A stretch of DNA of 64,000 bases, from assembly GCA_903813345.2 (NCBI GenBank), contig CAIIXF020000010.1, positions 1,355,169 to 1,419,168 on the forward strand. The letters are read 5' to 3'. A model generated the notes under the pieces. It saw nothing but the letters and a program-made list of their open reading frames with translations, was not told the DNA's origin and made no database searches. The first letter of the stretch is position 1. Every line of letters begins with the position of its first letter. Below are positions 4,090-53,960 of this stretch, piece after piece. The position numbers were made by a program, and so were the translations under genes. Source of the DNA: Owenia fusiformis (lineage: Eukaryota; Annelida; Polychaeta; Sabellida; Oweniidae).

Positions 4090-4500
4090 ACATTGTCACG
4101 GTCATATTGTGCTTTAACATTACCACAGTCATGCCAGGCCTTGCAACCATTGTCGTGGTCATATCAGGCTTTAACATTACCACGGTCATGACAGGCCTTG
4201 CAACCATTGTCACGACGGTCATATCAGGCTTTAACATTACCATGGTCATGTCAGGCCTTGGAATATAGAATAGCATTGTCACGGTCATATCAGGCTTTAA
4301 CATTACCACAGTCATGACAGGCCTTGCAACCATTGTCACGATGGTTACCACGGTCATGTCAGGCCTTGCAATAAAGTATAGCATTGTCTTGGTCATATCA
4401 GGCTTTAACATTACCACGGTCACGACAGGCCATGCAATATAATATAGCATTGTCACGGATATATCAGGTTATCACGATAACACTACCACGGTCATGGCAG
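4090..4500. repeat. degenerate minisatellite, about 57-60 bp dimeric period
   Basis: GCTTTAACATTAC recurs at 4111, 4168, 4228, 4294 and 4402. Each period is built from two related ~29-bp halves, one carrying GGTCATATCAGGCTTT and the other GGTCATGACAGGCC. Both strands stay open for over 60 codons only because of the repeat, so those frames are not genes. Confidence 0.8.
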
Positions 4501-30051: not shown

Positions 30052-33000
30052 CTAGTCAAGTTTATATTCTTCGCCGGGTACACCCATAATGGCTCGTTGT
30101 ACAAGGATCGTAAATTTTTCTGGAATGCAAATTAAAATCATTTTATCATTCTTGATATGATCACTTTTTCCATTTCAATCAGTGTTTGAGTAATCATAAT
30201 TCATATTGATAATGCTCTAAAAATGAAACCACAAACATTTGTCTGAAAAATATTATACCCAAATTCATCTATTTCGCAACTTAATTCCAAAGTGCGTTCA
30301 AAATAAACAAGAGCTCTTCCCTGTTTGTTTTGAAAAATACATGTGATTTTGTAAGCCTGGATCATGAGATAAAACAGAACAGGAAAGGCAAACACTGTAT
30401 TAGTAAGTGGAGAAATATTCTTACGATTAAGCCGTCTAATAACTTTGGGTTTTTTCTTCCAGAGAATAAATATCCAATACACTGGTATACCTGAAAAATA
30501 AGATACAACTATGAAAATAGCTATTTGAACAATTTAAATGACAAGCAAAAATACTTGATTGGTTATTGATTTGTTGAATCATAATTCTAAGGCTGATATA
30601 AAGATGGCGCATCGAAAGTAGATTGCAAGATTGTGCTGCCAGCTTTATTACAAAATTATTTCTATTTAGGCATTTTAGTCCCATTTAATTATTTTTCTCA
30701 ATAACAAAGAAAACCTACCAGTTATAATAACAATGACAGCGTACAATGTGTCTTGTGGCGTCAAGACTATTGGGATCACCACTAGGAATACAGAGATTAT
30801 CAAAAATATAGTCGGCGCCGCAAGGTTAACCTGAAAATACAGATCGCTCGTAATATCATCTATATATACCAGTAAATACTATGTTTTGTGAATTCACAAA
30901 CTATTATAATGACCGTTTATGATTTTTTGCATTATACAAAAAAGAAGATACCCTGCGTGCAGAGTCTAGTTAAACTACGAAGCTCTCTTTTAAGAAGTGA
31001 AGTCAAACGAATGCAAAGGGTAAAAAGAAGATAGCGTTGTCCCTGGTGTAGGTATTCTCATACTAATCACATATATCCATCTCTATATAAACGCGATGTG
31101 CTCTTATTTAATCAATCGGTCAAAGCTGGATTGAACACGAAAATATTAATACTCGTAAACTTCTGCACAAATTGTAGTAATTGGCAGTCTCAATTATGGG
31201 ATCCACAGCCTGTACCATAGACTTGATATATGCCCTCTCAAGTATTAGATAAAGAGGGATAGTCTCCTAAAACATCAGTCCGAAAATTAGAAGATACTGA
31301 CCTTAATGGGCCTCTTGAGATTTGGTTTACTATAGCGCAAGTAAAGCAATGCGGCTACTGAAACACCTGCTACTAATGCTTCCACAAAGCTGCAGATGTT
31401 GATCAACATGAAGATATCCTGAACACCAAGGTAAAATAGAGACATCGTACACTGAAATGGAATAATGAAAATATTATGTCATATGATAGGGGAAGGTATT
31501 GCATAGCCAAACCCCGGGAGCCAAACATTGTCTCTAGATATTGACTTTAGACCTCCATGTATATTCATAAAATATGGCTTTCTAGATCAGAATAAACCCT
31601 AGCCTGACTTATTGCACAAAAATGTTAATTTATGATAGGCATTATAATGAAAGGTATATTAGTACATGTCCAGTCTAGAAAATCTCTTTACATAGACTTT
31701 TTGTACATGTTATTGTAGTTAAAGAGACTTTATGGGCACCCTGAATATGTGTAATCTTGGTACGTTTTGAGGAAGTTACGAGTGATGTGAGTTTCTGTTT
31801 TTGAAGACACATACCTCAAACATGAGAGATGGTATCGGAGTGTAAGTGTTGAGACTGATCAGAGCAAGGGCTTCTGGGAGTTGACCCTCTCTTGCCCCGA
31901 CAAAGAAGAGGCGAGATACGGACATGATGCAGCCATTCAAGCTGCCAAATGTGGAACAGGCCACAAACACAGGCATCACCCAAGCCATCATTCCAAACAT
32001 CTTCATCGCAAAGCTCTGCAAGAAAAATAATGGTTACTTTCTTCAGTCAACTTAGGCAATATGCAATGTTTGAATTGAATTTGATTTTCCTGCAGTTAAT
32101 ATTCTGTAAATATACATAATGAAAAGCAGGTTTGTGATATATATTGAAATGATTATAGGGATGACATTTACCATCTATATGTAATGCATTAAATGTTTGG
32201 TAATAAATGCTTGGGATAACATAACTAATATAATGCCATACGTGCCACCATGACCAGGAATTTATCAATGAGGTATCTAATGTATGTATGTATGTATTCT
32301 TTATTTGCGTCTATTCATTTAGACAGTTACATGGTATACATTGATATAAGGTAAAAGAAAAGAGTAATATAAAAGCTACAGGTACAAAAAGTTAAAATGC
32401 CTTAACATTGTCTCCCTGGCTCTATGCATAGAGTGAATGTTAATCGAAACAGAACAGAGAGAATCAAGGCTCTCCTGGTCCAAACTCAAATGATTTATAC
32501 CAAAAATGAAGCTCAACTTTTCATCAATTGTATGGCACTCTCCACTTTCTAAAAGCATGGTAAGTGTATGTCGCTCATGAGAAAGTGCGTCACAACGCAA
32601 TAAGAAATGTTCCATGGTGTCATTTTCTTTGCTGCACAGAGGGCATAAAGCACAAATATCAAATGGGTAGCAACGTGTTTGCAGTTTGAACATTAGGATA
32701 CATTGTTTGTTGAGAATAGGACTTTTCTTACTAATATTCCACCATAAAATTGGCTGCATAAATGACCTTACAGTAGGTACAAACATAGTTAAAGAATCAT
32801 ACAATGAGCACATCATGATAACACTATGGGCTTCGTTGCACCTTATTATACCACTCACAAGACGTTTAAAGGCTGATTTGGAGAGAAATTCCCCAGACTC
32901 TATCATCTTGAACACCATATTATTCAAATTGTAGCGTTCTAAGGTTTCCCACATGATTGAAAGTGGGGAATTGTGCCGCCCATTCCCCCCAATAAGCCAC

Positions 33001-36000
33001 AACAGTCGATGAATCAGAACAGTTTTGTATATATTGTTCATCGGTAATATTACAATGCTCCAGAAGAACATCAGCCTGGTAAAATCAATCTGTCTTTTTA
33101 TAGAGAGCCAGCCAAGACCTGCGATAGCAATGGGGTTCGGAGAACTTTTTGGGAGTGCCTGTATCCTCCGTCCGATTTCTCTATGTGAAATTTCCATTTG
33201 CTCCGTTTCCCAATGGGTGTAGTCTATCACTTGGCATCCATATAGCAGTTTGCTCATAGAAAAAATCCAATACAGCTTACTTGCCATTAATGGGCATAGA
33301 CCCCCAGTAAGAGAGCCTAGTCCTAGTAGTGAGAAAAATTTCCGTTTGGATTTGCACACAGTTTGTTTCACAAAATCATTGTGCCTTCCGAGGGGTATTC
33401 CTACATGCATCTCCCCTGCTTTTTGTTGGATCACATTGGGCCCTAGTTTAGCAACGTTATTTCCATTTTGATGTCTGCCAAAAACAAGTAACGAACATTT
33501 CCCTGGGTGAAAAGTAAGTCTCCAATATGTACTATAGTCCCACACTATACTTAGCAACCTGTTCATATTATGCATACTGAGAGATATGAGCGATAAGTCA
33601 TCAGCGTAGGCGACTACTGAGACATCAGTATTTCCTATCCGTACCCCACATTGTTCGCCCACAATATCCTTCAACAGATCAGCCAGATAGAATTGGTAGA
33701 CCAGCATCGACAACACGCCCCCCTGATGGACCCCCTGTTCGACCTTAAAGCTATCCGAGCATTCGCCATCGAACAAAATCGAGCAGTTATACGTTTTGTA
33801 CGAAGCATACATTATTCTCCAGAACTTGCCGTTCATTCCACATTTGTAAAGTTTGTACAACAAGCCATCAATCCACATAGAATTGAAGGCCTTACGCACG
33901 TCCAATAGCGAACAGTATACGGTACCCCCCTTGTCCATACTATGTGATATAGCTTCCTGTAGTAAGAAGGAGGTATGAAGAGATGAGCACGAATCAATCG
34001 CGGCACCCTGTAGTTGTGGAATGTGTGCCAGGAAGCGATGTTTGCTACGGGCAAGCAGTACATTGTCGAATAATTTTCTCAGTGAGGACATGAGTGTGAT
34101 ATCACGGTAATGGTCACGGTCCAGTGGGTCCTTATCACCACCCTTGAACAGGGGGATCAGCAGTCCGATACACAGACCATGAGGGATATGTTCATACTTG
34201 CGGATAATATTGAAGAAAATACAGAGTACAGATACCAGATTTGGACCTCCAAATTTCAAATGTTCCGCGGAAATGTTATCCAATCCACACGCGCGGTTTG
34301 TGTTAAGGGCTCCAAGAGCATCTGTCGTTTCCGTCACAGTTATCGGCAGATCCAGGATTCCATCAACATTCGCCATCGATTCCACTTGCAATGATTTAAC
34401 ACGTCGGTTTATATGAGCGTGGAAATCTTCATTGAAATACGGAGAAGTACTAGGGGTAGCTAGCTTTGAGAAGTGCTTCATCCATGCATCACGAATTTCA
34501 GACGGGTCTGATAAAATTGAGCATGGAATGGAATTCAATCAAGTTCAGAACAGTAAAACCTGTTCATTTTTTACCGCATGTAAGTCAATGGGAGATAATA
34601 ACGTGAGACCGAACAAAACAATTTCACATTGAGAGACGTTCACATATGATAGGTGTTCGAATAAAAGAGGTGTTCGGATAAAAGAGGTGTTCAGATAAGA
34701 GAGGTGTTCAGGTGAATTTTACTGTATTTACTTACCACAGCTACAGCGTCCGAGCCAAGTATTTCTGCAGGCGTCAGTATTGTAAAATATGCAACGTTGG
34801 CCAGTACGTATATGACTGTCACCAACGGTAATGAGATCCATATTGCCCATGGCAAGTTACGATAGGGATTCTTTAACTCCTCCGTGAGAAAGTTTAACGA
34901 ATACCTGGAAATGGTAATTATGAATTATTAGATGCTTGAAAAACTGTAATTAATGAAAAAGATGTCAATTAGACCTAAGATTCGAAAACATAACATCGGG
35001 CTAGGAAAACTCATTCAATAAAGAAAAACACGGTCTCCGCGCCAGAACATAATGTTGACGTAACAACGGACAGATGGACGGGTGGTTATCCTACAGGCTC
35101 ATGCATTTGAATTCCCATTGCAAGATAAAAAAAAGATGGCACTTTTCATTCATGTACCATCAGGGTATCTCATAAATGATTGAAATGAGGGAAACGACCA
35201 TTAAGTCACACTGATTAGTGTAAGACATGACATTCGCATGGGAAACGGTAACTCAAATTACTTCTTATTTGATAATTTCCTGGTATTTTTGGATCATCTT
35301 CATTAATCATATTTTTGCAAGGTGATGTCGGGAACTTATTAGTATTTCTGTTACCTAGTCAGCAAGTATCCATCAGTTATAATGATCTGGTTTTAATGAT
35401 AATTTAATGATAAATTGTGTTTAATGAAAATGTATTCTTCCTTGAACTCAATTGTTACGTTGATTGATTGATATGATAGCCCTGCCCTACATATAGATCC
35501 TAGATACAGTTTAGGTCATGCAAAAAACCTTCAGTAAACGATACAAACAAAAATCTTACGTTTGAGATGAGTGACCTTATGTAACTTGAAAATAACTCAT
35601 GGGAGAAAACATGTTGAACATCTTTAAAGCTAGAATCAGAGGTATTTATAGTGGACCTATAATTGTAATCAACACCCTGCAGTTTGAACTAATGTGAACC
35701 GTAACATAACAAATACAAGACCCCAAATGTGAAATTCATGAAGCTTATTGCACAATATTATTCATGTTATCATGTCAATGAACCTTAAATTCGAAACATA
35801 TCTTTGATATATAATATCTGGCATGAATGGTTTTAGTAAGGTATGCTACTCCACGATCTGTTCATGATTCCAATTGGCCACAAAATGAGCATTCCATGCC
35901 ATGGTCCAACCAACGTAAATGTAGTTTTTTGAGGATTGAATTATGTCACAATCTCCGACACTGATTTTTTGGTATTTAATGATGCAAATATGGTTTTCAG

Positions 36001-39000
36001 ATATGCTCATACCGAAGAGGGTATGAATTTAACATTTTTCTTTGAGGGGAATGAAAAACAGACCCCCACCCCTCAGCTTGTGGCTGTCGACGCTTTCGGT
36101 GGGCGTGTAACCCCCTCCCCTTTGGGAAATCCTCCGGACGAGCATATAAAAAGATATTGCTCCCTGTGTCCGATTCTACCTTTAAGTTGCATTAAATAAT
36201 CACTATCAAGAGATCAAGAAACGATTCCATTTGGTTCAGATTAACATAGTCTATTAACATAGTTAAGTTAACCTTGGAATTTGATCACCTCAATGAAAAT
36301 CGCACCTTGGAATCCTGAGAGAAAGGTGTACGTAACCCGGATCTATTACGCCACTTGAAAGCGGCAGATGGTATACTTTAACGGAGGGGTTTCTAAATAA
36401 AGTTGTGATATGCTAATAATAGTTCATGGGAAGCAAACGCATAATACGTCATACCAAGCTCGGGGTTTCCTTTAAAGCAGATGTAGATAGGCCCTCGTTG
36501 CCATGGATACTATAACTCTATCTGATGTTACATTAGTTACAGAACATTGTACGTAGCATTTAGTCAGTTCGTTCGTTCTAGTCAGAGCAACCAATGTTAA
36601 AAATTCTCAACACTATCCTAAAGTTAAGATTGATTTCAAACACAAGATTTCAATGTTGATTCCATTTTTTATGATAACATTATTCGTCTCATGGTATTCC
36701 GATTTTTCTGTGTCAAAAATCAACATATCAACAAGTACTTGACGTTAACCCATTCAAGGTCAACAACTAACAATAACAAATAGTTATTATCATAATTTAC
36801 CTTTCCTCAAGAGAGACTCATAAATGATCTGTTTTACGGCAATGAATATGTTTGCTGTAATCCATTCTATTGCAGAAGGACAACATTATTGATTTCCATG
36901 GAACGTTAAATACAATTTATATGCTTGGATTGGCTCGTTTGAAATGTTGCTCTATTGGTTGCTAGATAGGGCGAAATGGAGAATTGTATCTAGAGGAGGC
37001 AGGTGCTGATCTGGAAACTAACAAGCCCCCTCCCCCTGATCCGCCAGTGGGAGGGGGTGCACTGTATATGCGCTATATGTACACAAGAATTCATATGAAC
37101 TTCTAGAGATTCATCTTCACATAGAGTTCATCTATGAATGCTGGGTATTTCCTCCTCTTGCCGTATGAAGAGAAGTAATTTCTTCTGGGTCCTTGACGTA
37201 ATATAAGTATAAGTAAACAGGCTAAGTGAGTGGCTGTTAACATTTCAAGAAACATATCCAATAAATGAAATTATTATGATATCCCGGGTGTCATACAGAT
37301 TGAAGGTCTACGTCATTGTAACGTCAATCACGTAAACGTAGACACGAAACAACTGATCAAGACACTCAGATGACCAACCATACAAATATATCGAAAAAAC
37401 ACAAACGGAATCATTTAATAAAAACACATTTTAAAACATCATTATAAAATGATATCAAAACCATATCATTCGGTTTTAAGGATTAGTTCTATTTGGGTAA
37501 TGGTTTACAAGGATTGCAATGTCATTTATAGTTAGTTAGTCAGTTAAAATAGTTTATGAAAGTCACACACGTATAACAATTAAAATATGTCATTTATATA
37601 TTTCCCTATTCTCGCTCTTTGTATTTTTCTTATTGGTATTCAAAACAGAGCCTATCGCCATTTTGTCTTTGATAACCATTACGTTCTGATTATCTTCATC
37701 CATATTATTTTAATTCTCCAATAACATTCTGTAAATTGATCGGTAATTGAAACGATATGAAATATGATTGTCTGCTACTCCATTCCTCCTTTAAAGGATA
37801 CCAGATTCTGGTTAATGATCGTATATTTATATTTAGGATTTTTACCAATGAAAACTACAAGGTCAATATTTGTTGTACTGAGAAATGTCACGTACACGTT
37901 GGAAGGCGTAACGTGAAGAACATAAATTACCCTGAACACCCATAAGCACAGCACACGACCCTCTTATTATGACGATGATGATTCGTCGGTTCTGTTAAGG
38001 ACGCGATCTTATCAAGCTCAAATGTAAATCTGAAGAGTTTGATTATGAAACGAATTTCGGTTATAATAGTACTAATATGCAAAAATATATAGATTTGTCC
38101 AAAGAACCATATGTTGTTTAAGAGGATAAGATAAGTCGAGCTCTTGGCAAGGGGAAGATAAATGGGCAATAAATAGTATTCAGTATTGATTTTAGGAGCA
38201 GAGTATCCAAAGTACAGCTAGCTGCAAGGATTGCGAAATATACCCTCTACATGCGAATGAGCGCGTAGCAAAGGTAGATCAAACAATATAACGATGTCAT
38301 ATTTCTATGAACATTTGTAGTTTGAATGTACATGGTATGTAATGACACTTTCATTCTTTGGGGTGGTTGAATTAATGCAAACAAATGGTATTGATACTAA
38401 AATGCTGCCATTTAACACCTTATTATCGACAGTAGTGAATACTATAGCAAGGTACATGTAAACGAAACTACCTTTTATAAATTGATTCCCCATATCCCGA
38501 CTAGACTAGTCTAGATCCGGATTCTTTAACTCATAGGTAGTTGGATAAAAGGACGGGACGACCTAAAACGGTTAGCGTCTTTCATTTTGTTCAACATTCG
38601 GGTAAGAATCTAGTAGATTGATCCAAGAAAATGTAATTCTCTCCGACCCAGAGGTTGTGTAACTCATACGTTTGGCAACATTTTCAAATTCGTGACATTT
38701 TAACATAATCTACAAAAGGCTATTGTTCTCCGACGTTTAATTAACCCATTTTGACTCGTATTTAAGACCGATATGATAGCTCTGCTGAGATCAATTACTT
38801 CTTCAGACAGAAAGATATATTTAAATAAGACTGTCGATTCCTGGGCTTTGTTGAGTATCAATTTCCTATTTAGATGTACTACTCTGAACGCAGGGTTTAC
38901 TTATTCTGCCAGTTTTAACAAATCGTCCACTACCTTGGACTTCATTTGCGAAGAAACTTATCGAGGCCAACAGCGAGGCCAAGGTCTAAGGTCAAAATCT

Positions 39001-42000
39001 AGGTCAAACAAAGTTTTGTTTCTTAGATTCGAGGAACGATTTAACAATATATTATGTGTCTACCCATAATTGATGAAAATAATGCAGCTTTGTAGTTCTG
39101 AACCCGAGCTCTAAAGAAGCTCGATGACCCTATTAAGTTTTAAAGATATTACTTATGATACCAATTCTAATGTTTCTAAGATGGAATATTGTTTATGCGG
39201 CACTTTGCCTCATATTAACCCAGAACCAATAGCAACATCCCATTGCTATTTTTGTTACCTGAGAATTTGTTTTTCAGATAACATCGTCTTGTCAGATTCT
39301 AGTGATTCTAGTATCAGTTAGTGTAGTGCACGGTCGCAAGAAAGCATGGATAACCTGTTTAATATGGAGGCTAGCTACACGTTTTAAGAGAACTTGTAAG
39401 TGAATGTAGTATTTTAACTCAAGGGGAGTATTGTTCCCCTCTCAATTTTGAATTCTTCTATTTCCCTCCCTCATACTTTACACTCAATCGGGCAAGTAAA
39501 TACGAAGGGGAGAACTTCACCAATCCAAGGTCTTTTCTGCATGTTCACGACCAAGTACGACCAAGTACCAACAAAAACCAACATAAGATACACAAAAAGA
39601 TTGTAAACTGGGACTGGTCGCCAGACTGATGCTGACTGCCTTGTTAACACAACTACCTGCTGCTTATCATTTCATGCTCTTTAAACGTTTTACATTAAGC
39701 TGAAATAAACCCGTTGATCTTGAAACTGTTTTTAACAAGTGGTTGCGGAGTTATTCAAGATGATGTCAATAAAATTGTCAAATATTCAAAGGGCAACAAT
39801 AAAGAATAGAGTGTGATGGGTTAGAAATTAATGTTTGAATTAAAATGTCAATGTGTTCCTTGCGATTCAAAAATATTTAAGATATCTGATTTGAAAAATA
39901 TTGAGATTCAGAAATGTGCAGATTCATTCAAAATCTATTTAGAGAGAAGTTCTATTAATATATCAAATATATTGGACATAATCCTAGAAATGAAAGCATT
40001 CAGAACAATAGAATTTTCTACAAAAAGACATGATAAGAAATGCTTTGAAGATGATATCGCCTAAATGCGAAAAATAGCCAAACTGAGACCCCATGTTACT
40101 GTAATGACAACTTTGGAATATTTTACTAGACTAGATAGGTTCCCATTTCGAAATTTGTTCCTATGATACCATTACTCGTTTCTGAAAGTGAACAGGACAC
40201 TTGTCTAAGTCAAGAAAAGGTCTGCGTTCCAGGCGAACTGCCATTATGTGCTGACTGTGATACAAGGGCAAGGAATCCAAAATCGATGTTTAGCGCTCTA
40301 CTCGAAAACTACTGATCATTGTGGTTATTGAACTTGAGTGAAATCAATAAATCAATTTTGTAACACGATCCTTAATCAATACGAACACACAATTGCAATA
40401 AATACTTACCATCCTGAATAGCTGAACAGGCCTGAGTAGAATGCAAGAGCGATAGATCCAGGATTCAATACAAACGCACAATTGCAATAAATACTTACCA
40501 TCCTGAATAGCTGAACAGGCCTGAGTAGAATGCAAGAGCGATAGATCCAGGATTCAATACAAACACACAATTGCAATAAATACTTACCATCCTGAATAGC
40601 TGAACAGGCCTGAGTAGAACGCAAGAGCGATAGATCCAGGATTCAATACAAACGCACAATTGCAATAAATACTTACCATCCTGAATAGCTGAACAGGCCT
40701 GAGTAGAACGCAAGAGCGATAGATCCAGGATTCAATACGAACACACAATTGCAATAAATACTTACCATCCTGAATAGCTGAACAGGCCTGAGTAGAACGC
40801 AAGAGCGATAGATCCAGGATTCAATACGAACACACAATTGCAATAAACACTTACCATCCTGAATAGCTGAACAGGCCTGAGTAGAATGCAAGAGCGATAG
40901 ATCCAGGATTCAATACAAACGCACAATTGCAATAAACACTTACCATCCTGAATAGCTGAACAGGCCTGAGTAGAACGCTAGAGCGATAGATCCAGGATTC
41001 AATACAAACGCACAATTGCAATAAATACTTACCATCCTGAATAGCTGAACAGGCCTGAGTAGAACGCAAGAGCGATAGATCCAGGATTCAATACGAACAC
41101 ACAATTGCAATAAATACTTATCATCCTGAATAGCTGAACAGGCCTGAGTAGAACGCAAGAGCGATAGATCCAGGATTCAATACGAACACACAATTGCAAT
41201 AAACACTTACCATCCTGAATAGCTGAACAGGCCTGAGTAGAATGCAAGAGCGATAGATCCAGGATTCAATACAAACACACAATTGCAATAAATACTTACC
41301 ATCCTGAATAGCTGAACAGGCCTGAGTAGAACGCAAGAGCGATAGATCCAGGATTCAATACAAACGCACAATTGCAATAAATACTTACCATCCTGAATAG
41401 CTGAACAGGCCTGAGTAGAACGCAAGAGCGATAGATCCAGGATTCAATACAAATGCACAATTGCAATAAATACTTACCATCCTGAATAGCTGAACAGGCC
41501 TGAGTAGAACGCAAGAGCTATCGATCCAGGATTCAATACAAACACACAATTGCAATAAATACTTACCATCCTGAATAGCTGAACAGGCCTGAGTAGAACG
41601 CAAGAGCTATCGATCCAGGATTCAATACAAACACACAATTGCAATAAATACTTACCATCCTGAATAGCTGAACAGGCCTGAGTAGAACGCTAGAGCGATA
41701 GATCCAGGATTCAATACAAACGCACAATTGCAATAAACACTTACCATCCTGAATAGCTGAACAGGCCTGAGTAGAATGCAAGAGCGATAGATCCAGGATT
41801 CAATACAAACGCACAATTGCAATAAATACTTACCATCCTGAATAGCTGAACAGGCCTGAGTAGAATGCAAGAGCGATAGATCCAGGATTCAATACAAACA
41901 CACAATTGCAATAAATACTTACCATCCTGAATAGCTGAACAGGCCTGAGTAGAACGCAAGAGCGATAGATCCAGGATTCAATACAAACGCACAATTGCAA

Positions 42001-45000
42001 TAAATACTTACCATCCTGAATAGCTGAACAGGCCTGAGTAGAATGCAAGAGCGATGGATCCAGGATTCAATACAAACACACAATTGCAATAAACACTTAC
42101 CATCCTGAATAGCTGAACAGGCCTGAGTAGAATGCAAGAGCGATAGATCCAGGATTCAATACAAACGCACAATTGCAATAAATACTTACCATCCTGAATA
42201 GCTGAACAGGCCTGAGTAGAATGCAAGAGCGATAGATCCAGGATTCAATACAAACACACAATTGCAATAAACACTTACCATCCTGAATAGCTGAACAGGC
42301 CTGAGTAGAATGCAAGAGCGATAGATCCAGGATTCAATACAAACACACAATTGCAATAAATACTTACCATCCTGAATAGCTGAACAGGCCTGAGTAGAAC
42401 GCTAGAGCGATAGATCCAGGATTCAATACAAACGCACAATTGCAATAAACACTTACCATCCTGAATAGCTGAACAGGCCTGAGTAGAATGCAAGAGCGAT
42501 AGATCCAGGATTCAATACAAACACACAATTGCAATAAACACTTACCATCCTGAATAGCTGAACAGGCCTGAGTAGAATGCAAGAGCGATAGATCCAGGAT
42601 TCAATACAAACACACAATTGCAATAAACACTTACCATCCTGAATAGCTGAACAGGCCTGAGTAGAATGCAAGAGCGATAGATCCAGGATTCAATACAAAC
42701 ACACAATTGCAATAAACACTTACCATCCTGAATAGCTGAACAGGCCTGAGTAGAATGCAAGAGCGATGGATCCAGGATTCAATACAAACACACAATTGCA
42801 ATAAATACTTACCATCCTGAATAGCTGAACAGGCCTGAGTAGAACGCTAGAGCGATAGATCCAGGATTCAATACAAACACACAATTGCAATAAATACTTA
42901 CCATCCTGAATAGCTGAACAGGCCTGAGTAGAATGCAAGAGCGATAGATCCAGGATTCAATACAAACACACAATTGCAATAAACACTTACCATCCTGAAT
43001 AGCTGAACAGGCCTGAGTAGAATGCAAGAGCGATAGATCCAGGATTCAATACAAACACACAATTGCAATAAACACTTACCATCCTGAATAGCTGAACAGG
43101 CCTGAGTAGAATGCAAGAGCGATAGATCCAGGATTCAATACAAACACACAATTGCAATAAATACTTACCATCCTGAATAGCTGAACAGGCCTGAGTAGAA
43201 TGCTAGAGCGATAGATCCAGGATTCAATACAAACACACAATTGCAATAAATACTTACCATCCTGAATAGCTGAACAGGCCTGAGTAGAATGCTAGAGCGA
43301 TAGATCCAGGATTCAATACAAACACACAATTGCAATAAATACTTACCATCCTGAATAGCTGAACAGGCCTGAGTAGAATGCAAGAGCTATAGATCCAGGA
43401 TTCAATACAAACACACAATTGCAATAAATACTTACCATCCTGAATAGCTGAACAGGCCTGAGTAGAATGCAAGAGCGATAGATCCAGGATTCAATACAAA
43501 CACACAATTGCAATAAATACTTACCATCCTGAATAGCTGAACAGGCCTGAGTAGAATGCAAGAGCTATAGATCCAGGATTCAATACAAACACACAATTGC
43601 AATAAATACTTACCATCCTGAATAGCTGAACAGGCCTGAGTAGAATGCAAGAGCGATAGATCCAGGATTCAATACGAACACACAATTGCAATAAATACTT
43701 ACCATCCTGAATAGCTGAACAGGCCTGAGTAGAATGCAAGAGCGATAGAACCAGGATTCAATACAAACACACAATTGCAATAAACACTTACCATCCTGAA
43801 TAGCTGAACAGGCCTGAGTAGAACGCTAGAGCGATAGATCCAGGATTCAATACAAACACACAATTGCAATAAATACTTACCATCCTGAATAGCTGAACAG
43901 GCCTGAGTAGAATGCAAGAGCGATAGATCCAGGATTAGTGTTGGAGCCTTCAAATGCATTGTCGAAGTGCTTCGTCTCACCTAGAATGGTGTGGATAAGT
44001 TATTAAACATGGTCGGAATATGTACGCGCAAATGCAAACTGGAAAGTATAAAATATTACAGTACACAACAAGAAAAAGAAAATCAGTGATAAGGAAAACA
44101 AACCCCAAATATCCCAAATGATAATCCAATCTAGCTAATTTTGGGGCAGGCGAAGCAATTGGCCGACCAAAACAGAAACGGTGAAAGTCGTACCCCACAG
44201 TAGCAACATCTTTTATTTTTTCATGGTGTGCCTCTCCTATTTCTGGATACAAACCTAATAGTGATGATATATCCATAATCCCATAATATTCTTGCCAACA
44301 TAATTCGAAATGTTCAAGATTGTTTTTGCTATATGTAACCCCCACCCTGACAATAACTGACAACTTAAACATATCAGTAATATGATTGGTGTCCCATAGC
44401 ACGTACCAACCAACCAGATAACAAATAAATGTTTTGTTAAATCTAATCAAATAATATTATGAGTAAAGAGTTGCTTAATGTTGTATCTAATCTAAACCCC
44501 ACTAGTGCAATATCTTAGTTATAGCGATATATAAGATATTGCATTATATAGATGAACATAACTAATATTAACTATACGCCATTACATCATAGAAGCTTAA
44601 CTGACCCAAATATTATAAATATTTACACCTATTTTCAAAACAATAACAGGTGCACCTTTCCCCATCAAAATGTAAGTGTAGTTAACACCTAGAAAAGTAC
44701 ATATACCATGCTTAAAATATGTAAATATTCAAAGTTTCTTCTCAATGCGAATTTTAAATCATATATGATTTGTTTCTAGAATGATCTTTTCTGTTCTAGA
44801 ATGATCATGGTGGGAGACCACGCCCTTCATTTGAAAAAAGATGGGATGATCGAGTACAAGAAGGGAAAAACGAGTATTCCTTTCAATCGCGATTTTGACA
44901 TATACTATATATATATGCAACATACAAACACACAAATAAATACAAAAGCCATTCATCATAGGATATTGTACAACAAATATATTACCGGAACAGCTGAGTT

Positions 45001-46322
45001 GCATGACCTGGTATCAGGAGAAATTCATGGAGAAAACAACTCTAAAGGAGTGAATCGGAAAGAGTTTGTTGTTCTTTTTTAAAGTGCGAAAATGGCTGAA
45101 GAACCATAGATTATTGATCATTTAAAGCGCTTTACTAAAATTTAGTATGAGGAAGACATGAATAAAATAAAATATTTAAATTCTTTCTATTTGGACTAGT
45201 GGTATCAAAAATAAATGGTGGTTATTAATATTTATATTGTATTGTCTGAAGTGTTGGGAGCCGTTGGATTTTGTTTCATTGTGTAGTTGTCCGAAAAGCA
45301 AAGGGTCGTGGGTTCGATCCCCAGAAGGGGATTTTTTCACCTAAGTTAGCTCAGGTTTCCTTCAATGTGTTCAATGACGAATAGGTGGGATAGTGGGGAT
45401 TTGTTTTCCTTGCTATGACTTCGTATGTTTTATTTTCTTTGATTGTTGTAATTCGCTTTGTTTAGGCAACCATTGTTACTTATTATAATAAAATCATGTA
45501 TACATGGAACATTAGCAAAAGGTATTTTAAAGTGCAAATACCTCTAATCAACTGCACGAGTCCAGTAAAGATCACAGTACAAAGTGCCAATATCTTGATG
45601 ACTGTGAAGACGTTCTGAACCTTGGTAGCAACATTCACACTGGCGCAGTTCACAAATGTCAGAAGGGCTAAAAAGGAAGAAATATTCAATTTAAAGGTAT
45701 GCGTATTATATGAACTCAGAGTTATTTTCCAAATTTATGTAGTGTAGAAGATATATGGCATGGTATTTTGACTCGTTACTCGGTTTAACTTGAACTTACC
45801 AATTGCTCCCGCAGCCAATAACCGAATGGCAACTTCGGGGGATTGGCAATCCGGAAAAAATGGGTAGACAATGTACTCTGCAAAAGTCAACGCAATTATA
45901 GCGTTCGCAGTTGGGGCTGTGATCAGTAAGAATATCCACATGTACAGGAACGCACTGAGGGGGCCAAATGCTTCCTGTAGGTATGCGTACTGTGCCCCTG
46001 ACTTCGTGATACATGTTCCTAGCTCTGCAAAGCAATGTGCCCCTAAGAGGCACAAGAATCCAGAGAGGGTCCAGACGACCAAGGCCAATCCGATGGACCC
46101 GGTCTCAAGAAGGACACCTTTAGGGCTGACGAAGATACCACTGCCAATTATAATACCAGATATAATTGCTACCCCATTGAACAGTCCTAATGACCGTTTT
46201 AGATGTATCCCAGAATGCCCAGTTGTGTCCTGTACTTCCGGTGATTCATTGGGTTTCATGGGTAACATCTCTGCTGCGTCCATGGTTACCATTCCGTTCT
46301 TTTTATGTGCCCCTGTACCCAT
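30052..46322 (-). CDS. SLC7-type amino-acid transporter light chain (LAT/y+LAT-like)
   Basis: Nine exons in gene order: 46322-45800, 45667-45542, 43980-43881, 34904-34736, 32015-31815, 31451-31302, 30830-30719, 30490-30425, 30119-30052 (stop TAG). All joins are GT-AG with matching phase, giving 504 residues, the usual length for heteromeric transporter light chains. Signatures: TM1 unwound GSGIF at 60-64; extracellular PDC with Cys158 where the family forms the disulfide to its SLC3 heavy chain; [17 protein letters not shown] (TM6) followed across the next join by [38 protein letters not shown]. The family exchanges large neutral or cationic amino acids at the plasma membrane. Residues look closest to y+LAT/LAT members, but the exact subtype is inference. 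An acceptor at 46339-46340 implies an upstream 5' UTR exon. Intron 3 carries the 40-copy exon-fragment array and intron 4 a retrotransposon. Confidence 0.93.
30949..31022. mobile_element. 74-bp mini-element, 9-bp duplication (copy 1)
   Basis: Starts TACCCTGCGTGC and ends GCAAAGGGTA (short TACCCT inverted ends). Flanked by the 9-bp repeat AAAAGAAGA at 30940-30948 and 31023-31031. Identical to 54155-54228 over all 74 bp. It lies in intron 6 of the SLC7 gene. The 9-bp duplication suggests Mutator-like mobilisation (inference). Confidence 0.85.
32281..34545 (-). mobile_element. 5'-truncated non-LTR retrotransposon (LINE)
   Basis: Minus-strand insertion in SLC7 intron 4, in gene sense. It ends in an (ATAC)n simple tail at 32281-32297 and starts within ORF2 near 34525-34545, lacking the endonuclease. 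It abuts the MITE starting at 34551. Contains the open frame described next. Confidence 0.85.
32376..34538 (-). CDS. reverse transcriptase, ORF2 3' part, 720 codons open
   Basis: Uninterrupted frame covering the reverse transcriptase and C-terminal region of a non-LTR element. RT motifs in order: the YRPITLLSS-type block, here [16 protein letters not shown] (144-159); [10 protein letters not shown] with catalytic Asp213; [18 protein letters not shown] (272-289); and the active-site YADD at 311-314. The C-terminal region has a zinc-knuckle-like [17 protein letters not shown] followed by LLRC. The first 50 residues correspond to the usual pre-RT linker; the endonuclease is absent. The Pro-to-Asp change in the first motif is unusual. 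Intactness suggests recent insertion. The true initiator is upstream and lost; the listed start is only the first codon after a stop. Clade not assigned. Confidence 0.9.
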   Translation of the reverse strand: MNSIPCSILSDPSEIRDAWMKHFSKLATPSTSPYFNEDFHAHINRRVKSLQVESMANVDGILDLPITVTETTDALGALNTNRACGLDNISAEHLKFGGPNLVSVLCIFFNIIRKYEHIPHGLCIGLLIPLFKGGDKDPLDRDHYRDITLMSSLRKLFDNVLLARSKHRFLAHIPQLQGAAIDSCSSLHTSFLLQEAISHSMDKGGTVYCSLLDVRKAFNSMWIDGLLYKLYKCGMNGKFWRIMYASYKTYNCSILFDGECSDSFKVEQGVHQGGVLSMLVYQFYLADLLKDIVGEQCGVRIGNTDVSVVAYADDLSLISLSMHNMNRLLSIVWDYSTYWRLTFHPGKCSLLVFGRHQNGNNVAKLGPNVIQQKAGEMHVGIPLGRHNDFVKQTVCKSKRKFFSLLGLGSLTGGLCPLMASKLYWIFSMSKLLYGCQVIDYTHWETEQMEISHREIGRRIQALPKSSPNPIAIAGLGWLSIKRQIDFTRLMFFWSIVILPMNNIYKTVLIHRLLWLIGGNGRHNSPLSIMWETLERYNLNNMVFKMIESGEFLSKSAFKRLVSGIIRCNEAHSVIMMCSLYDSLTMFVPTVRSFMQPILWWNISKKSPILNKQCILMFKLQTRCYPFDICALCPLCSKENDTMEHFLLRCDALSHERHTLTMLLESGECHTIDEKLSFIFGINHLSLDQESLDSLCSVSINIHSMHRARETMLRHFNFLYL
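34551..34724. mobile_element. 174-bp MITE with CAGTAAAAC ends (copy 2)
   Basis: Left end CAGTAAAACCTGTTCA; right end (reverse complement) CAGTAAAATTCACCTGAAC, followed by TA. Same family and nearly the same length as 1476-1647. It contains about four tandem copies of a ~17-bp unit GAGGTGTTCGGATAAAA at 34649-34712. The left TA is missing, which fits disruption by the adjacent LINE. Confidence 0.65.
34905..40375. other. SLC7 intron 3, part outside the array
   Basis: Intronic DNA between the 89-bp array and exon 4. Several 60-100-codon frames on both strands have no domain or splice support. Contains the 50-bp element at 37000-37049 and, at 39369-39395, a relic of the GCTACACGTTTT element found at 60831-61030. 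Confidence 0.5.
37000..37049. mobile_element. 50-bp minimal member of the GATCCGCCAGTG family
   Basis: Left end CAGGTGCTGATCTGG and right end (reverse complement) CACTGGCGGATCAGG, with only a C-rich core between them. Flanked by GGAGG at 36995-36999 and 37050-37054, the third 5-bp duplication of this family in the window. Confidence 0.7.
40376..43936 (-). repeat. 40-copy, 89-bp tandem array of SLC7 exon 3 end plus donor
   Basis: The 5' splice site (CTTACC on plus) recurs from 40405 to 43876, a span of exactly 39 x 89 bp, so there are 40 units with no net indel. In gene sense each unit is 56 bp of exon 3 (encoding [19 protein letters not shown]) plus GTAAGT and 33 bp of intron in all. The copy at 43881-43936 is the genuine exon end; the other 39 follow it in intron 3. 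The unit lacks the 5' part of the exon and its acceptor. Exon-part variants seen are GCA/GCG, CTT/CTA, TCT/TCG/TCC, ATC/ATA and GGA/GGT, all synonymous in the SLC7 frame. One unit (near 41119) has lost the GT donor. Read-through meets TAA directly after the Trp codon. Confidence 0.95.
43977..44450 (-). other. 157-codon open frame in SLC7 intron 2
   Basis: Open frame immediately upstream of exon 3 on the same strand. The middle part ([20 protein letters not shown]) looks protein-like and the C-terminal part is hydrophobic, but it overlaps the exon 3 acceptor region and I recognise no domain. Probably chance or a repeat relic. Confidence 0.2.
45265..45335 (+). other. tRNA-like B-box fragment (possible SINE relic)
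   Basis: GTGGGTTCGATCCCCAG contains an RNA polymerase III B box (GGTTCGATCCC) and an imperfect T-arm. The 5' half does not fold as a tRNA, so this is a tRNA-derived relic at most. Confidence 0.25.
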
Positions 46323-52944: not shown

Positions 52945-53530
52945 GTCATGATTTGTTATGATTGTAGTACGTATTTTGTTATGAATGCATACATGTCACA
53001 ATTTGTTTTAAATAAACGCATGTCACATTTTTATGGATGTTCCAATGTAACATTTTGCTATGGATGTACCGATGTCACATTTTGCTATGGATGTACCCAC
53101 GTCACATTTTGTTTTGAATGTACGCATGTTGCATTTTTATGGATGTACCAATGCAACATTTTGTTATTGATGTACCCAAGTCACATTTTTATGTATGTAC
53201 CGATGTCACATTTTGTTATGAATGTACCTAAGTCACATTTCTTATGGATGTACCAATGCCACATTTTGTTTTGGATGTACCCCTGTCACATTTTGTTATG
53301 GATGTACCAATGTCACCTTTTGTTTTAAATGTACGCATTCACATTTTTATGGCTGTACCAATGTCACATTTTGTTATGGATGTAACTATGTCATATTTTG
53401 ATTTAAATGTACGTATTCACATTTTTATGGATGTACCGATGGCACAGTTTGTTTTGGATGTACGTAGGAATTTACCCGTATCACATTGTTATGAATGTGT
53501 ATCCATGCCACTTTCTGCATATCATTAATA
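52945..53530. repeat. minisatellite, ~35-36-bp monomers
   Basis: Irregular tandem copies of a unit with GATGTACC, ATGTCACATTTTG and TTATG. A 126-codon frame on plus (52948-53328) exists only because of the repeat and reads as alternating MDVPMSHF-type motifs, so it is not called a gene. Confidence 0.8.
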
Positions 53531-53542
53531 TAGCCATGTCAC

Positions 53543-53960
53543 ATCTGTTCTGAATGTACCCATGTCACATTTTGTTCGGCATTTACCTATGCAATATTTC
53601 GTAATGAATGTACATATGTCACAATTTGTAATGAAAGTACACATGTCACATTTGTTCTGAATGTACCCATGTCACATTTTGTTCGGCATGTACCTATGTA
53701 ATATTTCGTAATGAATGTACCTATGTCAAAATTTGTAATGAAAGTACACATGTCTCATTTGTTCTGAATGTACCCATGTCACATTTTGTTCGGCATGTAC
53801 CTATGTAATATTTCGTTATGAATGTACATATGTCACAATTTGTAATGAAAGTACAAATGTCACATTTGTTCTGAATGTACCCATGTCACATTTTGTTCGG
53901 CATGTTCCTATGTAATATTTCGTAATGAATGTACCTATGTCACATTTCGTCAGTTCCCCA
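53543..53960. repeat. 107-bp higher-order repeat, four copies
   Basis: TGAATGTACCCATGTCACAT starts at 53551, 53658, 53765 and 53872, exactly 107 bp apart. Each unit is three diverged ~36-bp monomers of the neighbouring minisatellite (one with TTCGGCATGTACCTATG, one with TTCGTAATGAATG, one with TTTGTAATGAAAG). Confidence 0.88.

Follow-up and report, generated by a model that had tools for sequence, protein, structure and literature searches.

Forty tandem copies of an exon end and its 5' splice site in an SLC7-type transporter gene: probably a tolerated minisatellite

If a spliceosome meets 40 almost equal donors, how does it pick one? Do duplicated donors and acceptors take part in splicing, and at what point does a copy turn into an exon? 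These questions are raised by a tandem array that starts within exon 3 of an SLC7-type transporter gene, located in the 64-kb stretch of contig C10 that was analysed here (the window). How introns originate has long been asked, and one route that has been put forward is tandem duplication across splice sites (PMC3087553). We conclude that the array is probably a tolerated minisatellite, or 'mirage', that covers the last part of exon 3 together with the adjoining 5' splice site, and that the donor belonging to the exon itself is probably the one in use. The locus, its paralog and other exon-boundary arrays in the genome are homogeneous and apparently young cases in which this route to introns could be followed. 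The gene and the array comprise the following features.

30201..46322, minus strand: transporter gene of the SLC7 light-chain type, with 8 coding exons that encode 556 aa without an internal stop (gene model, Pfam and PDB matches)
43881..43980, minus strand: exon 3, ending in 56 nt (43881-43936) that form the exonic portion of copy 1 (gene model; exons 3-4 aligned to PDB b(0,+)AT)
34905..43880, minus strand: intron 3, 8976 bp, opening with the intronic portion of copy 1, followed by copies 2-40 (gene model)
34736..34904, minus strand: exon 4, which finishes the split W codon (gene model)
40376..43936, minus strand: array of 40 units of 89 bp, each the 56 nt of the exon 3 end and 33 nt of the intron start (Tandem Repeats Finder (TRF) and unit table)
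43875..43880, minus strand: first donor GTAAGT, abutting exon 3 (unit table and gene model)
41121, minus strand: first intron base of copy 32, changed from G to A, the sole broken GT among the 40 (unit table)

The sequence-only reading of this DNA had named the gene family, the exon and its position, and all three were borne out. The 8 exons join in frame across GT-AG introns, the exon 1 peptide matches Pfam PF13520 (AA_permease_2; 1.1e-16) and SLC7 chains in the PDB (1.1e-45), and exons 3-4 match SLC7 chains at 5.2e-34, with b(0,+)AT and y+LAT as the best; a family match and an open frame, as expected of an SLC7 light chain, are thus both present. Exon 3 ends in phase 2, and its junction with exon 4 completes a W codon. 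On the b(0,+)AT structure alignment, the repeated peptide falls in the SLC7 region bearing the motif GL(W)AYxGW, which the sequence-only reading took to be transmembrane segment 6 with the substrate gate. Intron 4 holds a 720-aa open frame (32376-34538, minus strand) that resembles, by eye, a retroelement reverse transcriptase.

In the window, TRF reports a single tandem array over 40376-43936, with a period of 89, 40.0 copies, 97% matches and 0% indels, as the earlier reading had it in describing indel-free copies at exact spacing. On the minus strand, each unit comprises 56 nt of coding sequence (18 residues and TG) followed by 33 nt of intron opening with GTAAGT. That reading had given the same 56 and 33 bp, and GTAAGT is to be counted inside the 33; it had also placed 40 copies after exon 3, and the 40 units exist, but only 39 of them are extra, copy 1 being the authentic end of the exon in the gene model. 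Its count of 39 intact donors agrees with the unit table, in which GGTAAGT is preserved everywhere except in copy 32. With both strands counted, the window holds 39 GGTAAGT inside the array and 3 elsewhere, so that chance need not be considered.

The consequences of using a later donor were computed. With copy 2, 3 or 4 as donor, an in-frame TAA directly follows the W, and still later donors read into that same stop. Because every later donor adds this immediate TAA, the exon's own donor is expected to be the one used. We propose that a tandem duplication across the boundary was followed by growth through slippage or unequal exchange, and that units were later exchanged with the array of a neighbouring paralog. 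The donor abutting exon 3 would be used, copies 2-40 would be removed with the intron and the protein would be unchanged. Use of a later donor would retain a unit, and the TAA after the W would give a truncated product, probably degraded by nonsense-mediated decay. Selection would hold copy 1 in use, and the other copies would be passengers with, at most, a mild drag on expression.

The paralog was found with a 31-base probe across the unit junction, searched with up to 2 mismatches through the 498-Mb assembly. All 57 places lie on C10 in two clusters, 39 in the window and 18 at C10:1348107-1349650, about 46 kb away and outside the window. The second cluster (array B, the window array being A) comprises 19 copies, the last one truncated, and abuts exon 3 of a paralogous gene with a matching layout, of which exons 1-7 were modelled and are all open. 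The proteins of the two paralogs share 83% identity across 460 aligned residues. When the repeated piece is set aside, synonymous divergence (dS) is 1.03 and nonsynonymous divergence (dN) 0.10, so that both paralogs look constrained. The repeated piece itself is far closer: copy 1 differs between the genes at 1 of 56 nt, compared with 8 differences in the adjacent 44 nt upstream. When the truncated 19th unit of B is excluded, the mean number of differences per 89-bp unit is 2.4 in comparisons inside A, 2.7 in those inside B and 3.0 across the two arrays, and 5 of the 18 full units of B have an exact match in A. Because units are shared to this extent despite a dS of about 1.0 elsewhere, sequence appears to have passed between A and B long after the gene duplication. 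Independent expansion in both paralogs was rejected, the 33 intronic bp being common to both while the rest of the genes stand at dS 1.03. The final unit of A is complete and runs into A's intron, and that of B stops after GTAAGTATTT, followed by B's own intron; this difference favours a birth of the array in A and a subsequent transfer to B. The rest of the assembly yielded 10 further SLC7 exons homologous to exon 3; each was read, and none carries an array at that position. In 9 of them a GT stands at the equivalent point, two bases into the W-aligned codon, and in the remaining one (L016) the frame reads on.

Variation was counted over the 58 full units of both arrays. The exon part contains 8 distinct variants, 6 of which are synonymous in the frame of the gene, where random single changes would give a share of 25-27% (P 0.004-0.007, a rough value that treats the variants as independent); every one of the six variants shared by two or more units is synonymous. 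This preponderance suggests that the units derive from coding copies under selection or were overwritten by them. Five variants occur in one unit each (unit positions 23, 56, 57, 76 and 80), and two of these hit the last base of the exon and the G of GT. Selection on the donors as the cause of their intactness was rejected, as one-unit variants strike donors too; recent homogenisation explains the intactness without selection, which is therefore no evidence for a splicing role. The near-identity of the units could also be expected if the assembly had expanded true alleles with few units. Against such an artefact, the 40 copies fall into 20 unit types, no stretch of three or more units appears twice in identical order (although 5 pairs do) and the separate array of the paralog has private variants. 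An array of 3.6 kb is also within the length of ordinary long reads. We consider an assembly artefact very unlikely.

Could the additional donors nevertheless act in splicing? The predicted pairing energy with U1 is -11.0 kcal/mol for the array donor, compared with -5.8 to -10.7 for the gene's six other donors and -14.0 for the full consensus. The array might be a functional splicing rheostat, in which U1 binds the 39 additional donors and these rival the first one; a share of the transcripts would then be spliced from later copies, carry the TAA and be degraded, so that copy number sets transporter output. The strength of the donors, their preservation in 39 of 40 units, the built-in stop after the W and the presence of arrays of differing copy number in both paralogs would all suit this model. 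However, the preservation is no more than homogenisation yields, given the two of five one-unit variants at the donor; comparable arrays occur in unrelated genes, as described below; the 10 further SLC7 exons do without one at that position; and published mirages reportedly leave splicing undisturbed (PMC3087553). A role of this kind is unlikely in our view.

Each unit also carries an acceptor-like site 22 nt upstream of the donor, CTCTTGCATTCTACTCAG, with 0.80 pyrimidines in the 15-nt stretch scored, within the 0.60-0.87 of the gene's real acceptors. The idea that each unit is a complete exon, its acceptor lying at the join of the 56 and 33 nt, was rejected, as there is no AG at that point and the best acceptor-like site is internal. 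From this internal site, the units could be nascent exons, spliced as 22-nt microexons between 67-nt introns, a step towards the intron gain that has been proposed to arise from mirages (PMC3087553). The frame would be kept by exon 2 with one 22-nt piece or by exon 3 with three, but one or two pieces after exon 3 lead to stops, and the acceptor-like site is by origin unconserved coding sequence. This possibility is, in our estimation, extremely unlikely.

Arrays of this type are not confined to the two paralogs, and donor-motif arrays are common throughout the genome. Three successive GGTAAGT motifs (triples) were sought at spacings of 67-97 or 36-66 bp, with the letter-reversed motif as a control. 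They were found at 1564 and 1428 places, respectively, compared with 1313 and 1270 for the control, places not being independent arrays; as the single motifs number 56,088 for GGTAAGT and 96,958 for the control, triples per motif occurrence are 2.1 and 1.9 times those of the control, and about 0.2 triples are expected by chance. The matches listed, 100 places per spacing class, all lie on contig C1 and form 20 clusters. One cluster (C1:9549621) was dropped as no repeat was visible, and the upstream edges of the other 19 were examined. Exon peptides were cut by hand, 16 of the 19 being submitted to Pfam (L020, L029 and L031 were left out) and 3 to the PDB, with recognition set at E <1e-3. Among the matches listed, 8 of the 19 arrays begin in a recognised coding exon end (6 by Pfam, 2 by the PDB), and for 4 of the 19 no family emerged from the hand-cut peptides. 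The matches at these C1 arrays were as follows.

Recognised exon ends, Pfam: Muted (BLOC1S5), MBT, NIF phosphatase, Ssl1, UPRTase, TTI1
Recognised exon ends, PDB: WDR35, ORP1
Weak matches: tetraspanin 0.058, TSP_1 0.028, DCAF17 0.01, neurolysin 0.48

The array with the weak tetraspanin match has a tetraspanin exon (2.3e-7) about 1.3 kb upstream, and the one with the weak DCAF17 match may start at the donor and not within the exon. Together with the second array in the paralog, the further donor-motif arrays on C1 led us to reject the idea of a unique locus. The neurolysin-like exon (L033, C1:58792816-58796062) is ended by a 34-bp donor array; the 2 kb fetched contains 50 GGTAAGT, and the coordinates correspond to about 95 unit lengths, so the window array may not be the longest in the genome. 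At C1:51116462-51116988 (L031), tandem units of 58 bp end in TCTCTCTCATAGTCCTAG directly followed by GTAAGT, so that an acceptor-like sequence abuts a donor, an arrangement also seen in recursive splicing; no exon was recognised there.

Acceptor-motif triples were found at 1370 places and their reversed control at 275, these being raw counts and not rates per motif occurrence. Two acceptor-site arrays, with units of 47 bp (L039, C1:61142782-61144715) and 61 bp (L040, C1:57373885-57374119), run into exons that are, by eye, ankyrin- and myosin-like. The window itself holds two other minisatellite clusters, at 52973-53947 (27/107-bp units) and 4091-4468 (57/108-bp units), with no known exon boundary there.

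As a baseline, 20 isolated GGTAAGT sites were taken from the first 0.46 Mb of C1, and hand-cut peptides of 10 of the 20 were submitted, compared with 16 of 19 for the arrays. Two matched below 1e-3, a retroelement reverse transcriptase and a tetraspanin, of which only the latter was counted; one PDB attempt gave E 0.43. One of the 20 sites (L057) carries a unit of the array at 443 kb on C1. A broader idea is that splice sites themselves seed arrays in this genome. Minisatellites would then form preferentially over true exon boundaries, with coding copies as the source of their renewal. The resulting genome-wide stock of duplicated donors and acceptors could supply new introns, microexons or dose-setting splice decoys, and here would even be passed between paralogs. 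We hold this idea to be unlikely.

How well does a tolerated minisatellite account for the whole? In its favour, copy 1 is contiguous with the exon, the exons join in frame, the arrays of the two genes are homogenised with each other and the genome carries exon-boundary arrays elsewhere; the sequence-only reading had listed an unequal-crossover satellite tolerated by the intron among its options, and rightly so. Three points weigh against it. Firstly, of the 40 predicted donors all but one match the first in strength, so that the exclusive use of copy 1 cannot be taken for granted. Secondly, the 6 of 8 synonymous variants are unlike the variation of purely neutral non-coding copies, unless the units descend from coding copies. 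Thirdly, non-retroelement Pfam matches below 1e-3 were obtained at 6 of the 19 arrays compared with 1 of the 20 isolated sites (one-sided P 0.039), which hints that arrays may not strike boundaries purely at random.

The nature of the host bears on the comparison with known cases. The GC content is 35%, and the annelid haemoglobin linker family matches at 3 places (best 5.0e-7; the best PDB match is a haemoglobin linker, 0.0022), including exons matching annelid linker chains at C6:27033687-27048438. The GFP and molluscan haemocyanin families had no match in the assembly, neither search having a control match; COX1 was likewise without a match. Mirages have so far been reported from lancelets, although such a host is no part of their mechanism. 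A lancelet host seems less likely here, as the linker-family match speaks for an annelid, and on this weak marker evidence the genome looks annelid; an annelid of about 500 Mb such as Owenia would be a candidate. If it is, mirages are no peculiarity of lancelets.

The sequence-only reading knew of no described locus with such donors; in this it was mistaken, as mirages in amphioxus and repeated donors in human IFI6 (6-16) have been published. The IFI6 repeat has a 12-bp unit in 26 copies. Its units act as splice donors, and downstream units are used to give three mRNA species (PMC4526556). The present array is similar in that minisatellite units offer several donors at an exon end, one in 39 of the 40 units here. 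Unlike in IFI6, where later units are used, a retained unit would bring a stop, so the open frame is not kept with a later donor. A second human comparison is provided by variable internal tandem repeats at the exon-intron boundaries of segmental duplications, with a mean of 4 repeats and 30-bp units, some making new introns (PMC2812944). These are likewise minisatellites at exon-intron boundaries of duplicated genes, but the array described here has 40 units of 89 bp and is common to paralogs at dS of about 1.

The closest likeness is to the amphioxus mirages, tandem repeats across exon-intron boundaries with units of 10-72 bp in Adh3 and 150-160 bp in globin genes; both types of boundary are affected, the repeats evolve in concert, splicing is stated to be regular by reverse-transcription PCR and the authors propose them as a path to new introns (PMC3087553). 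PGBD5 in amphioxus has 60- and 108-bp repeats, and Adh and TnC are cited in the same paper (PMC3902484). Among the papers listed in a literature search of partial coverage, none was recognised as an annelid case. As in Adh3, BflGb6, BflGb9, PGBD5 and TnC, the repeats lie at boundaries in working genes and repeat the splice signals: the unit spans the boundary (56 nt of exon and 33 nt of intron), the array abuts an authentic exon both here and in the paralog, and the units are homogenised, with 97% identity and unit types common to both arrays. The amphioxus cases are unlike ours in scale and host, BflGb6 haplotypes having 6 and 3 units in a cephalochordate, compared with 40 and 19 units, exchange between paralogs and an annelid-looking genome. 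Combined, these comparisons indicate that the array is of a kind already known, the mirage, and most likely a tolerated minisatellite; what seems new is its size, the exchange between paralogs, the largely synonymous variants and the occurrence of more exon-boundary arrays in a genome seemingly not that of a lancelet.

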